DNA of 64,000 bases from Marivita sp. Lineage in GTDB: Bacteria; Pseudomonadota; Alphaproteobacteria; Rhodobacterales; Rhodobacteraceae. A program made the translations under genes and the position numbers. The notes under the pieces were generated by a model, which saw only the letters and a program-made list of their open reading frames with translations, was not told where the DNA came from and did not search any database. Position 1 is the first letter of the stretch. Each line of letters starts with the position of its first letter. Of this stretch, positions 52,084 through 59,298 are shown one piece after another. Location: assembly GCF_022763305.1 (NCBI RefSeq), contig NZ_JALEGT010000072.1, forward strand, positions 1-64,000, written 5' to 3'.

Positions 52084-53481
52084 TCAGAAGGCCGCGCGGG
52101 CAGAGGCGACAGGGATGCCATGTTGAGCGGACTGGGCCTGCGCAATCTCGATCCGGTTTCGACCGTTCCGCTTGGCCTCGTAAAGCGCAGTATCTGCGGC
52201 GCGCCTGAGATCCATCGTTGAAACGCGTTCGGATCGGGAACGGAGTGCAATCCCGATGCTGATCGTTGCACGCACATGAGTGCCGTTTTCGATGGCGGTT
52301 GCACCGCCTGCCACCGCGTCGCGCAGCCTTGATGCGACGGCGCGTGCCTGACCCGGTCGGACATCCGGCAACACGATCAGGAATTCTTCGCCGCCATACC
52401 GCGCGATGAAATCGCCGTCGCGCAGGCTCGATTTCATGATCTGGGCGATACGCGAAAGAACCATGTCGCCGGCTGAGTGACCATGGTTGTCGTTGATGGA
52501 CTTGAAGTGATCGATGTCCGCGATCAACACGGCCAGCGCGCGCGGTTCTTCGGCCAGTGCCCGATCCGTTCGCGCAAGGTACTCCTCCATTGCGGTGCGG
52601 TTGTTCAACCCGGTCAGTCCGTCCACATAGGCCTTCCGCTCAAGATCGGTGGTCGCCCGGCGCTCGCGGTCGGCATCACGCCTGCGACGGGCGAGGCGCT
52701 GGATCCGCAGGACAAGCTCGGTCGCGCTGACGGTTGTGGGGACCTGATCATGTGCACCGAGATCCAGCGGCGAGGCCCCGGTTGCCGCGCAGTCGGTGAC
52801 AAAAAGGATGCGGCTGTGCTGGCTGACGGGATGGGTCAGCAGGGCGGCAAGGGTTTCACGAGCCTCATCGGTTTGCTGCGTTTCCCACAGGACGAAGACA
52901 TCGGCGTCTGGATGGGGCTCGCGCCGTGCGACATGCGCCGCCACGCGCCGGATCTCGATCCCTGAGTCCGCAGGGTCCGGTGCCGACATCGGCGCGGACA
53001 GGGTGCCCGTCACGAAACAGGCCACGGTCTTTGGTGCAAAGTCCACAGTCGGTTCGGACAAACCCGAAGCAATATGCGCTCCGGATCGGGCGAGATACAG
53101 GCCGGAGCCTTGCTGCAACCGCATGAAGCTGCGCATCCGGGCCCTGAGGTCGGCTGACTCGGCCGACATCTCGATCACGTCATGCGCTCCGTCCACCAGC
53201 GCGCTGACCCGTGCGGACTGGTTTTCGCGTTGCACGGCGACGACAAGCGTCGTGCCCTGGGTGGAGGGCGTGCTGCGCATGAGCTTGCAGAACTGGCGCA
53301 ACCGAAGGCCGGGGAGGTCATGTGCAAGGATCACGACTTCGGGTGCTTCCTTGCGGATCAGGGTAAGCCCTTCTGCCAGCGACTCGGCCAAATCTACGGG
53401 ATAGGCGGTGGTGTCGAGCTTTGCGCGCATCTGGATGCGGCGATGGCTCATGGCGTCGATGATGAGAACGGACCTTGGCAC
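52084..53481 (-). CDS. PleD-like diguanylate cyclase with degenerate receiver domains
   Basis: 465-residue protein with a PleD layout: receiver-like domain 1 (about 1-120), a second receiver-like domain (about 145-275), then GGDEF (about 295-450). The cyclase site RYGGEEFLIV is intact, and an RxxD inhibitory site (RDGD) lies five residues upstream. In receiver 1 the phospho-acceptor position (53) is Ala, the acidic pair reads D9-A10, and the conserved Lys is Met. The second domain is also divergent. It could thus be phosphorylation-independent. It converges on the sigma module and is divergent from a DUF3572 gene. Confidence 0.88.
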   Translation of the reverse strand: MPRSVLIIDAMSHRRIQMRAKLDTTAYPVDLAESLAEGLTLIRKEAPEVVILAHDLPGLRLRQFCKLMRSTPSTQGTTLVVAVQRENQSARVSALVDGAHDVIEMSAESADLRARMRSFMRLQQGSGLYLARSGAHIASGLSEPTVDFAPKTVACFVTGTLSAPMSAPDPADSGIEIRRVAAHVARREPHPDADVFVLWETQQTDEARETLAALLTHPVSQHSRILFVTDCAATGASPLDLGAHDQVPTTVSATELVLRIQRLARRRRDADRERRATTDLERKAYVDGLTGLNNRTAMEEYLARTDRALAEEPRALAVLIADIDHFKSINDNHGHSAGDMVLSRIAQIMKSSLRDGDFIARYGGEEFLIVLPDVRPGQARAVASRLRDAVAGGATAIENGTHVRATISIGIALRSRSERVSTMDLRRAADTALYEAKRNGRNRIEIAQAQSAQHGIPVASARAAF

Positions 53482-54564: not shown

Positions 54565-54663
54565 TCGCCGACGAAAAGACCAAAAGCGACCGCATGAGTC
54601 GTGTTCCGGCAGGATAACCCGTCTCTGCGATGCCTAGCTAAAGTGGCAACGCAGGAGAATGCC

Positions 54664-56223
54664 ATGACAGAGGCCATCACACGCAAACGCAGGAGCGGAG
54701 GGCGGTCTGGACATGCCGTGCGCCGCGGGTCGTCGGTGATCGAACAGCTGCCTTGGAGCCTGCCGATCAACATCGACCGCCCGACAGAGCCTCTCAGCGA
54801 AGAAGGTGTGGCGCGGGTTCACGATGCGGCCATGATCATTCTCGAAGAGATCGGGATCGAATTTCTGAATCCCGAGGCGGTGCGCGTTCTCAAGGACGCT
54901 GGCTGCACTGTTGACGGCGAAAACGTACGTATGGGACGCGATTTCGTGATGGAGTGGGTGGGCAAAGCGCCCCGCTCGTTCACTATCACCCCGCGCAATG
55001 TGGACCGGAAGATCGTTGTCGGAGACGGGCATATCCTCTTTGGCAACGTGTCGTCGCCGCCCAATTACTGGGACATGGAAATGGGCCGAAAGGTGCCCGG
55101 CACGCGCGAGATGTGCCGCAATTTCCTCAAGCTGTCGCAGTATTTCAACTGCATCCACTTCGTTGGCGGCTACCCTGTCGAACCGGTCGATATCCATGCC
55201 AGCGTCCGCCATCTGGATGTGCTCTATGACAAGCTCACTCTGACCGACAAGGTCGCGCACGCCTATTCGCTGGGCAAGGAGCGTGTCGAGGACGTGATGG
55301 AGATGGTGCGCATCGCCGGTGGTCTGTCGCACGAGGAATTCGACGCCAGCCCGCGCATGTACACCAACATCAACTCGACCTCGCCGCTCAAGCATGACCA
55401 TCCGATGATGGACGGCTGGATGCGCTGCGCCGCGCGCGGGCAGGGGTGCATCGTCACGCCCTTCACCCTTGCCGGGGCGATGGCGCCCGTCACGATGGCG
55501 GGGGCTGTCGCGCAATCGCTGGCGGAAGGTCTGAGCGCCATTGTTCTGGCCCAGATCATCAACCCCGGTGCGCCCTGCGCCATCGGCACCTTCACATCGA
55601 ACGTCGATATGAAATCCGGCGCGCCGGCCTTTGGCACACCGGAATACATCCGCGCCACGCAAATGACCGGCCAGATGGCCCGCTTTTACGGTCTGCCGCT
55701 GCGATCCTCGGGCGTCTGTGCGGCCAACGTGCCGGATGGGCAGGCGATGTGGGAAACCGAGCACAGCCTCTGGGCCGCCATCCAGTCGGGCACCAACCTT
55801 GTCTACCACGCCGCCGGGTGGCTCGAAGGCGGGCTGATCGCCAGCCCCGAGAAATTCGTCATGGATTGCGAGGTGATCCAGCAGTTGATCCGCTACATGG
55901 ATCCGGCGATCTGCGACGTCAGTGATGACGGTCTGGGCCTCGAGGCGATCCGCGAAGTGGGCAGCAACGGACATTTCTTCGGCACCAAACACACGCAGGA
56001 ACGCTACACGACGGCGTTCTATCAACCCTTCCTGTCCGACTGGAAGAACTACGAGGCCTGGGAAGCTGCGGGCAGCATCTGGACGCCGGAACGGGCCCAT
56101 GTGATGTACAAGGCCATTCTCGAGGAATTCGAGGCGCCGCCGATGGATGAAGCCATCCACGAAGAGCTGCTGGCCTTCGTCGAACGCCGCAAAGCCGAAG
56201 GCGGCGCGCCAACGGATTTCTGA
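54664..56223 (+). CDS. MttB superfamily corrinoid methyltransferase, non-pyrrolysine
   Basis: 519-residue member of the trimethylamine methyltransferase superfamily. The ORF is uninterrupted, so it lacks the amber-encoded pyrrolysine of archaeal MttB. Conserved blocks include LLEEIGIEFLNPEA-like EEIGIEFLNPEAVRVLKDAGC, NINSTSPLKHDHPMMDG, and TFTSNVDMKSGAPAFGTPEY. Non-Pyl members demethylate quaternary amines such as glycine betaine (MtgB). AGGAG precedes the ATG. No corrinoid protein or methyltransferase II gene is adjacent. The substrate is unknown. Confidence 0.85.
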   Translation: MTEAITRKRRSGGRSGHAVRRGSSVIEQLPWSLPINIDRPTEPLSEEGVARVHDAAMIILEEIGIEFLNPEAVRVLKDAGCTVDGENVRMGRDFVMEWVGKAPRSFTITPRNVDRKIVVGDGHILFGNVSSPPNYWDMEMGRKVPGTREMCRNFLKLSQYFNCIHFVGGYPVEPVDIHASVRHLDVLYDKLTLTDKVAHAYSLGKERVEDVMEMVRIAGGLSHEEFDASPRMYTNINSTSPLKHDHPMMDGWMRCAARGQGCIVTPFTLAGAMAPVTMAGAVAQSLAEGLSAIVLAQIINPGAPCAIGTFTSNVDMKSGAPAFGTPEYIRATQMTGQMARFYGLPLRSSGVCAANVPDGQAMWETEHSLWAAIQSGTNLVYHAAGWLEGGLIASPEKFVMDCEVIQQLIRYMDPAICDVSDDGLGLEAIREVGSNGHFFGTKHTQERYTTAFYQPFLSDWKNYEAWEAAGSIWTPERAHVMYKAILEEFEAPPMDEAIHEELLAFVERRKAEGGAPTDF

Positions 56224-56290
56224 CCGTCCGCAATTTGCCGTTTCTTAAGACCTGACTGCCATGGTGTGCCTCAAACAGAAGGCGCATCCC

Positions 56291-56887
56291 ATGCACGGTC
56301 TCATCTTTCGCACGCTCGAAGCCTTTGTCTCGGATGTTTTTGGTCCGGACCACTGGGTGCGGGCTGTGGCCCTGGCCGACCTGCCTGTCACCTCGTTCGA
56401 GGCGATGCTGCAATATGACGCCGGGTATTTCCCCAGCTTGCTTGAGGCATGTGTCACGGTGCTGGATCGACCCGGGTCCGTGATCCTCGAGGATCTGGGG
56501 GCCTATCTCATCATTCATCAGAACCATGCTTCGGTGCGGCGTCTGATGCGGTTCGGCGGCGATACATTCGCGGAACTTCTGCAGTCCCTTGGCGATCTGC
56601 CTGACCGGACCCGCCTCGCGGTTTCTGGTCTGGACCTGCCAAGCATCCTTGTGCAGGAAACCATACCGCAAAGCTTCACGATCCAATGTGCGGACAATCC
56701 GATGGGGTTTGGGCACATCATGGTGGGATTGCTGCGCGCGATGGCCGATGACTACGGAACGCTTGCCCTGCTTGACCATCGCGGCCTGCGGAACGGGGCC
56801 GAGATCATCGAGGTGCAAGTCATCGAAACCGCCTTTGCCGATGATCGCGGCTTTTCATTGTCGGTTGCCCATGGGGCACATCACTAA
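56291..56887 (+). CDS. H-NOX (heme-NO-binding) family protein lacking heme ligands
   Basis: 198-residue protein with the H-NOX N terminus MHGLIFRTLEAFVSDVFG and the fold pattern to about 180 residues. By alignment by eye to sGC-beta and Thermoanaerobacter H-NOX, the proximal His is Pro104 (LGDLPDR) and the YxSxR motif positions are Ile131, Cys133 and Asp135. So the classic heme ligand and propionate contacts are missing. The ATG at 56291 has GAAGG upstream. The GGDEF gene starts on its stop codon (TAATG). The pair likely forms a sensor/cyclase unit, but the ligand is not obviously NO. Confidence 0.85.
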   Translation: MHGLIFRTLEAFVSDVFGPDHWVRAVALADLPVTSFEAMLQYDAGYFPSLLEACVTVLDRPGSVILEDLGAYLIIHQNHASVRRLMRFGGDTFAELLQSLGDLPDRTRLAVSGLDLPSILVQETIPQSFTIQCADNPMGFGHIMVGLLRAMADDYGTLALLDHRGLRNGAEIIEVQVIETAFADDRGFSLSVAHGAHH

Positions 56888-57951: not shown

Positions 57952-59298
57952 ATGGGTCTGATTTTCCGCCTGATTTTTCTGAGCAGTCTTTTTGTCCTGA
58001 GCGTTCATGAGGCACCGCTTCAGGCGCAGACCGCAGATCAGCCCACAGGCACCATCACCGTCGAAGACAGCGCCGAACAGGACGCCGCCATCGCCAATCG
58101 CATCCGCGAAATCCTGATGGAACTCGACGGGTATGAAGACGTCACGGTCACCGTCAATTCCGGGATCGTCACGCTGCGGGGCACAGCCCTTGATGGTCCG
58201 GCAGTCACCCGGCTGAATGAAATCGCAGGCCGCGTCGAAGGGGTCGTGACCATCGAAAACCGGGTGCAGGAAACCACCGACGTGGTGCGCCGTCTTGACC
58301 CTGCGCTCGAACGGTTCCGCGCCCGGTCCAAGCAGTTCGTCAATTACCTGCCGCTTCTCGCCATCGCGGCCGCCGCGTTTGCGCTTGTCGTCGCGGTCGG
58401 CTTTCTGATCGCCCGCCTGAAACGGCCATGGGACCGGATCGCGCCAAATGCCTTCATTGCCGACATCTACCGGCAGGTGATCCGCATCGCCTTTATTCTG
58501 GGTGGTCTGGTGATCGCGCTCGACATCCTTGGGGCCACGGCCCTTCTTTCGACCATCTTGGGTGCTGCCGGGATCATCGGTCTGGCCATCGGGTTTGCCG
58601 TGCGCGACACGGTCGAGAATTTCATCGCGTCGATCATGCTGTCGATTCGCCAGCCCTTTCGCCCGAATGATCAGGTCGAGATCGAAGGCGACATCGGCAA
58701 GGTCATCCGCCTGACCAGCCGCGCCACGATTCTGCTCAGCTTTGACGGCAATCACATCCGCATTCCCAACGCGACGGTCTTCAAGAGCAGGATCGTGAAC
58801 TACACGCGGAATGACGAAAGACGGTTTCTCATCAGCCTCGGTGTCGCCTATGACACCGACCTCGCACGCGCGCAGGATCTTGCGCTGCAGACTGTCACGT
58901 CGCTGCCGTTCGTCATTGATGAACCTGCCCCCGCCGTCTGGATCGAAGAACTGGGGGACAGCGCGGTGATCCTCAACGTGGCCGGCTGGATTCGCCAGCA
59001 CGAAACCAGCTATCTCAAGGCCCGGAGCGAAGCATGGCGCCTCTGCCTTGCCGCATTCGACCACGCCGGAATCGTGATGCCGGAAACCACGCTGCGGATC
59101 GTCGGAGTGGGCGATGCGCCGGCGCCACAGTCAGCCCCCCGATCGCCCGGGTCGACAGCCGCCGCCGTGGCCGCCGCGACCGCCACGATCGGCGATGTCG
59201 AAGCCGCCATGGACAAGGAACTCGAACGGATCGTCGCCACCGAACGCGCCGAAAAGCGGGGGGACGATCTCCTCAAGAAAGACGCGCCGGAAGAGTAG
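57952..59298 (+). CDS. MscS-type mechanosensitive channel with BON domain
   Basis: 448-residue membrane protein. A signal peptide (ending near LQAQT) precedes a BON domain (about 40-105, VTVTVNSGIVTLRGTALDGPAVTRL). Three or so membrane helices follow (about 125-220) and then the MscS pore/beta domain (GAAGIIGLAIGFAVRDTVENFIASIMLSIRQPFRPNDQVEI, RIPNATVFKSRIVNY). The C-terminal tail is Ala- and Glu-rich. It gates ions under membrane tension. It is a standalone gene before tRNA-Gln. Confidence 0.92.
   Translation: MGLIFRLIFLSSLFVLSVHEAPLQAQTADQPTGTITVEDSAEQDAAIANRIREILMELDGYEDVTVTVNSGIVTLRGTALDGPAVTRLNEIAGRVEGVVTIENRVQETTDVVRRLDPALERFRARSKQFVNYLPLLAIAAAAFALVVAVGFLIARLKRPWDRIAPNAFIADIYRQVIRIAFILGGLVIALDILGATALLSTILGAAGIIGLAIGFAVRDTVENFIASIMLSIRQPFRPNDQVEIEGDIGKVIRLTSRATILLSFDGNHIRIPNATVFKSRIVNYTRNDERRFLISLGVAYDTDLARAQDLALQTVTSLPFVIDEPAPAVWIEELGDSAVILNVAGWIRQHETSYLKARSEAWRLCLAAFDHAGIVMPETTLRIVGVGDAPAPQSAPRSPGSTAAAVAAATATIGDVEAAMDKELERIVATERAEKRGDDLLKKDAPEE

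Follow-up and report, generated by a model that had tools for sequence, protein, structure and literature searches.

A histidine-less H-NOX protein coupled to a diguanylate cyclase in Marivita sp., and heme-ligand variation across its Rhodobacteraceae subfamily

Introduction

What does an H-NOX protein convey to its partner enzyme when the residues expected to hold heme are gone? The question is raised by a reading frame in a 64,000-nucleotide stretch of Marivita sp. DNA (NZ_JALEGT010000072.1, positions 1 to 64,000; hereafter the window). The product is an H-NOX protein in which two sequence elements expected of a heme-NO/O2 sensor, the proximal histidine and the YxSxR motif, are absent by alignment, and the next gene encodes a diguanylate cyclase.

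A sequence-only reading of this locus implied an unusual single protein. That implication is not supported: the His-less class has already been published, and the window protein is a new but unremarkable representative of "group 5", Rhodobacteraceae H-NOX proteins that were reported to be mostly His-less (PMC8738867; PMC5588039). Group 5 is described as a very large cluster in which fewer than 10% of members have the proximal His, most have Pro instead, and Cys is not conserved; the same study asks how group 5 senses anything (Lee-Lopez and Yukl, 2022; PMC8738867). Neither the P. denitrificans H-NOX nor its R. sphaeroides counterpart has the axial His. In P. denitrificans, the hnoX mutant is biofilm-deficient and a cyclase double mutant over-produces biofilm, and from these opposite phenotypes it was proposed that H-NOX inhibits the cyclase DgcA (Kumar and Spiro, mSphere 2017; PMC5588039). 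The sign of this regulation is genetic, and c-di-GMP quantitation could not confirm it (PMC12582929). For D. shibae, PMC7232146 and PMC8846402 report Hnox as a heme NO sensor that inhibits the cyclase Dgc1.

Results

The window encodes an intact H-NOX domain under purifying selection

The H-NOX frame starts with a Met codon at 56291 and ends with a stop codon at 56885–56887; a second in-frame ATG lies at 56261. Start, stop, and the position of the cyclase ATG agree with the coordinates first given for the gene (Table 1). The Pfam profile PF07700 matches the protein with 65.3 bits (E = 8e-18) over 156 of 163 profile positions (positions 1–156). The AlphaFold2 model has a pLDDT of 87.3, and its top PDB matches in Foldseek are the Nostoc H-NOX (2o09; TM 0.80/0.86, E = 3.8e-12) and human soluble guanylate cyclase (sGC) beta. 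The window protein is a true HNOB domain of the H-NOX fold family PF07700, and its gene is the sole HNOB gene detected in this genome.

Within the genus, the median pairwise dN/dS of H-NOX is 0.14 (77 usable pairs; 17 genomes sampled), and 25 alignment columns are invariant across 67 homologues. The initial proposal that the fold is kept and the gene has not decayed is borne out by the full-length PF07700 match and by this signature of purifying selection.

Table 1. Features of the H-NOX/cyclase locus in the window
Feature	Position	Strand	Evidence
MttB-like trimethylamine methyltransferase family protein, upstream neighbour, separate gene	54601..56223	+	PF06253, 717 bits
H-NOX (HNOB) protein, 198 aa; Pro104 in place of the proximal His, C133/D135/P137 in place of YxSxR	56291..56887	+	PF07700, profile alignment, AlphaFold2, dN/dS
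Codon of Pro104 (CCT), proximal-His position, within predicted helix 93–110	56600..56602	+	Alignments, model, congener codons
Partner diguanylate cyclase, 338 aa	56887..57903	+	PF00990, 139 bits; AlphaFold2, pLDDT 90.9; Foldseek
Parts of the cyclase: HNOBA-like/PAS N-terminal domain, about aa 1–110; signalling helix, aa 123–159; GGDEF domain, aa 159–312			
BON-MscS mechanosensitive channel, downstream neighbour	57952..59298	+	PF00924, PF04972, PF21082

The proximal histidine and the YxSxR motif are both replaced

Pro104 was originally placed at the proximal-His position by eye. Two alignments, a phmmer search against PDB chains and a 67-sequence subfamily profile, likewise set it opposite the proximal His105 of Nostoc Alr2278, and both are gap-free from about residue 37 onward. 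In the AlphaFold2 model, which matched H-NOX structures when this proposed check was made, Pro104 lies inside one continuous predicted helix. The Y, S, and R of the YxSxR motif correspond to C133, D135, and P137; of the 20 canonical H-NOX proteins aligned jointly with the subfamily, 19 have YxSxR in these columns and the other has YxHxR. Loss of the motif had therefore been recognized correctly, but the residues named for it (I131, C133, and D135) were two positions off. These and all later statements on the H-NOX pocket are based on sequence alignment.

A conserved His elsewhere in the proximal helix would have counted against the proposal that the usual heme chemistry is not used. No conserved replacement was found there in the subfamily alignment, congeners included. 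H98, common in the subfamily, was considered as a substitute ligand and rejected: it is Gln in the window protein, it is present in His104-bearing members as well, and it does not track the loss of the proximal His. With Pro104 and without YxSxR, the usual His-heme chemistry is unavailable to the window protein.

Ligand loss is the rule in the Rhodobacteraceae module

All 17 sampled congeners have Pro at the proximal position, encoded variously by CCT, CCC, CCG, and CCA; four different codons for the same residue in every congener indicate that Pro104 is not there by chance. Whether relatives share Pro104 had been left as a point to check, and the pattern extends well beyond the genus. Among 397 genomes drawn from Rhodobacteraceae, 299 had an HNOB match, with a second, canonical copy in a minority. 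Taking a profile score of at least 170 as the limit of the subfamily gave 211 distinct sequences; this is a non-random set, in which the top 80 matches from one scan were supplemented with genomes chosen across the score range. At the proximal position, 152 of them have Pro, 23 have His, and 36 have something else (Ser 10, Arg 7, Ala 5, Gln 5, Asn 3, Asp 2, and Tyr, Thr, Glu, and Gly 1 each), so the subfamily as a whole tolerates loss of the ligand. Outside Rhodobacteraceae the subfamily was not found: 385 genomes were drawn across the class, a few of them from Rhodobacteraceae, and those from elsewhere gave no match at subfamily scores, only canonical-type matches of at most 113 bits.

On a FastTree tree built without the ligand column, the state changes between His and non-His about 14 times among subfamily members; counting only branches supported at 95% or more, a minimum of five changes of the His label is required. 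Support is low at many forks of this tree and its root carries no inferred state, which leaves the direction of the individual changes unproven; all canonical outgroup rows have His. In one close pair, L245 (Arg) and L248 (His), the H-NOX proteins are 86% identical and the cyclases 84% identical, which indicates that the ligand changes while the partner does not. For the hnox-dgc module of Rhodobacteraceae, a lost ligand is the normal condition, and His-bearing and His-less siblings exist side by side.

Two further arrangements were seen in the survey. A canonical-type H-NOX with an intact YxSxR (L064, G103:C4) has Gln at the proximal-His position and represents a second kind of His-less H-NOX in Rhodobacteraceae. 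Two congeners (L003, G012:C40; L002, G016:C144) carry an extra canonical, His-bearing H-NOX beside the His-less copy, each followed by a long unrelated ORF of about 480 aa that, by eye, is a possible histidine kinase.

The partner cyclase has an intact active site and is coupled to H-NOX in all loci examined

The cyclase ATG at 56887 overlaps the H-NOX frame by 1 nt, as had been noticed at the outset. By its sequence the active site is intact: the GGDEF motif is present, preceded at a distance of five residues by an RxxD (RQDD), in line with the initial description and with the strong PF00990 match. The AlphaFold2 model consists of a PAS-like domain, a 37-residue helix (a coiled coil), and the GGDEF domain, and PAS-GGDEF structures are among its top Foldseek matches. 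The HNOBA label given to this protein is right for the family and weaker for the window copy: PF07701 (HNOBA) matches 46 of 47 cyclase homologues (best E = 3.4e-9), whereas the window cyclase scores 17.8 bits (E = 0.0024), under the Pfam cut-off of 23.4 bits. A search of the window's own genome returned no HNOBA match above threshold, so assignment of this cyclase to HNOBA rests on its homologues.

A cyclase lies immediately downstream on the same strand in 222 of the 223 loci examined, some of which overlap one another, and is fused to H-NOX in the remaining one. The overlap between the two genes is most often 4 nt (119 loci) or 1 nt (40 loci), and 221 of the 222 separate cyclases carry GGDEF. 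The fusion (L237; G889:C121, 1–3000) joins a His-bearing subfamily H-NOX and an HNOBA-GGDEF cyclase in one 549-aa frame, and it supports direct coupling between the two proteins.

At same-genus loci the cyclase again directly follows H-NOX, and the mechanosensitive channel comes next in several congeners; the channel is probably not part of the H-NOX/cyclase system. MTTB is among the H-NOX neighbours listed previously (PMC8738867). A second diguanylate cyclase, a PleD-like REC-GGDEF protein, is encoded on the minus strand at 52084–53481, approximately 3 kb upstream of the pair. The genome also encodes two FIST-domain proteins (L268, G000:C55:5729-6316; L269, G000:C8:53995-54552), one of which adjoins a REC-LuxR response regulator. 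FIST is a domain of NosP NO sensors, and these two proteins are candidate NO sensors, if NO is sensed in this genome.

Residues conserved by the subfamily

Several positions are fully retained in the subfamily alignment: Pro117, which lines up with the heme-contacting Pro, and G70 and G146, which line up with the hinge glycines, are 100% conserved. R83, R84, R87, and R106, located in helices around the pocket, are nearly invariant and are the subfamily's own arginines. Together with the ADDYG segment, these invariant or nearly invariant residues are candidate pocket or partner contacts.

His2 (in MHGL) is present in 198 of the 211 members, whereas the aligned canonical H-NOX proteins carry Tyr, Lys, or something else at this position. 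It occurs in 180 of 188 His-less members (96%) and in 18 of the 23 that retain the proximal His (Fisher p = 0.007, uncorrected for relatedness); eight His-less members have no His2, and three have none of the four common His residues. At the S position of YxSxR, an aromatic residue or His is found in 18 of 23 members with His104 versus 27 of 188 without it (p = 6e-10 on raw counts, with only five independent pairs on supported branches). The only Cys more than 50% conserved is C133, present in 76% of His-less members, and the window protein has just C54 and C133.

Discussion

Comparison with known systems

The closest known system is the group 5 prototype, P. denitrificans Pden_3719 with the cyclase DgcA (Pden_3720). 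As in the window, Pro replaces His, there is no Cys cluster, the GGDEF gene is overlapping or adjacent, and MTTB is a neighbour; no feature separates the two proteins, which are 33% identical (tblastn E = 2e-23). The P. denitrificans copy in our survey (L270, NZ_CP141053.1) is of the Pro type, reads ELPGR, scores 169 bits with the subfamily profile, and is followed by a GGDEF ORF. All of the group 5 traits, Pro at the proximal position, an adjacent GGDEF gene, no conserved Cys, and homology to the P. denitrificans protein, are found in the window. For the R. capsulatus pair rcc02630/rcc02629 we found no useful literature.

D. shibae Hnox/Dgc1 (Dshi_2815/Dshi_2814) shares subfamily, gene order, and GGDEF partner with the window pair, and its Hnox also lacks the Y and S of YxSxR, but unlike the window protein it keeps the proximal His (DDLHDR). 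It is locus L050 of genome G051, which was identified as D. shibae DFL 12 by its replicon sizes and a plasmid match to NC_009955. The primary paper on this system is reportedly Bedrunka 2018.

Two other systems can be compared. The pseudo-H-NOX domain of the sGC alpha subunit has an H-NOX fold without heme, as we think is the case for the window protein; the human alpha subunit lacks the His and the moth alpha subunit lacks YxSxR (PMC8196705). In sGC alpha, however, an N-terminal extension fills the pocket, whereas the window protein begins at a normal Met, and the alpha chain matches the window model far less well (TM 0.48 versus approximately 0.8 for Nostoc and human beta). In the heme-free V. 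cholerae H-NOX, as in our proposal, an H-NOX fold controls its signalling partner independently of heme; this protein differs from the window protein in having the His, a 3-Cys zinc site, and a histidine kinase partner (PMC7108781).

A proposed mechanism and its alternatives

Any explanation has to account for an intact fold, the loss of the heme-binding residues, purifying selection, and universal gene coupling. We lean, with some reserve, toward an H-NOX partner that works independently of heme and inhibits the cyclase by way of the HNOBA domain, perhaps constitutively, in a state like the one that NO produces. The protein would fold normally, most likely without a His-ligated heme given the loss of both His and YxSxR, and would bind the HNOBA/PAS domain of the co-translated cyclase. 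By analogy with P. denitrificans genetics and D. shibae biochemistry, its effect on c-di-GMP synthesis would most likely be inhibitory. NO acts on H-NOX proteins by breaking the Fe–His bond, and loss of the His probably leaves the domain near the activated state in a similar way. In sGC beta, the H105C variant carries no heme and looks like the activated form (PMC8196705); taken together with the effect of NO, this suggests that a His-less H-NOX may sit permanently near that state. In the cell, it would then inhibit independently of heme, perhaps constitutively, and a factor distinct from heme-bound NO would modulate it: a pocket ligand, protein level, or another protein. The locus was first described as a c-di-GMP sensor; the coupling to an intact cyclase stands, but the wording was loose, and candidate regulator of c-di-GMP synthesis is more accurate.

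Two observations sit uneasily with this inhibitor. The complete conservation of Pro117, G70, and G146 means that the pocket could still be used, and a purely passive partner does not explain His2 in 96% of His-less members. It is conceivable, although we doubt it, that the cyclase in truth receives its signal from some other small molecule held in the pocket (another tetrapyrrole, a lipid, or another amphiphile). The invariant fold, Pro, and glycines and the arginines around the pocket would suit such a ligand, and there is precedent in the Nostoc and sGC H-NOX pockets, which bind BAY 60-2770 and cinaciguat (PDB: 4iae, 5mnw, 7d9t); against this, the analysis turned up neither a candidate ligand nor a co-occurring pathway, and the conservation may reflect only the fold and partner contacts. 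Less likely still is that the protein senses NO with a heme bound either through another axial ligand, such as His2 on the opposite face, or with no ligand from the protein. The enrichment of His2 in His-less members fits this possibility, but His2 also occurs in the D. shibae homologue alongside the proximal His and is missing from eight His-less members, three of which have none of the common His residues, so His2 was rejected as an alternative ligand for all members. Nearly all members have lost YxSxR, the motif that holds the propionates, and the scarcity of an aromatic residue or His at the S position of this motif when His104 is absent is as expected if heme binding has been lost, bearing in mind the few independent pairs.

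The remaining explanations carry very little weight. Cys oxidation activates the heme-free V. cholerae H-NOX (PMC7108781), and a similar heme-independent redox sensor with cysteines and zinc might be imagined here; we consider it highly improbable, because a conserved Cys cluster is missing from the subfamily and from group 5 as published (PMC8738867), and absence of the 3-Cys zinc site effectively refutes a Cys/zinc switch from the sequence. We give even less credence to a decaying relic that has drifted since heme function was lost. The wide variation at the ligand position is what such a relic might show, but the low dN/dS and the use of four synonymous codons for Pro rule out a decayed gene, and the 25 invariant columns, together with a gene that is intact in all sampled congeners and always GGDEF-coupled, also speak against it.

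Significance

The P. denitrificans papers still treat its ligand-less H-NOX as an NO sensor (PMC5588039; PMC12582929). A broader possibility, which we hold only tentatively and think rather unlikely, is that most Rhodobacteraceae use an H-NOX scaffold in which the heme ligand has been swapped repeatedly, for Pro or for nearly any residue, while the fold and the cyclase were kept, yielding a heme-free switch for a new pocket ligand. If so, the change of input would be directly visible between closely related siblings with and without the His (L248/L245; L119 and relatives). Our survey points to sibling pairs that would make sensing by His-less H-NOX testable.
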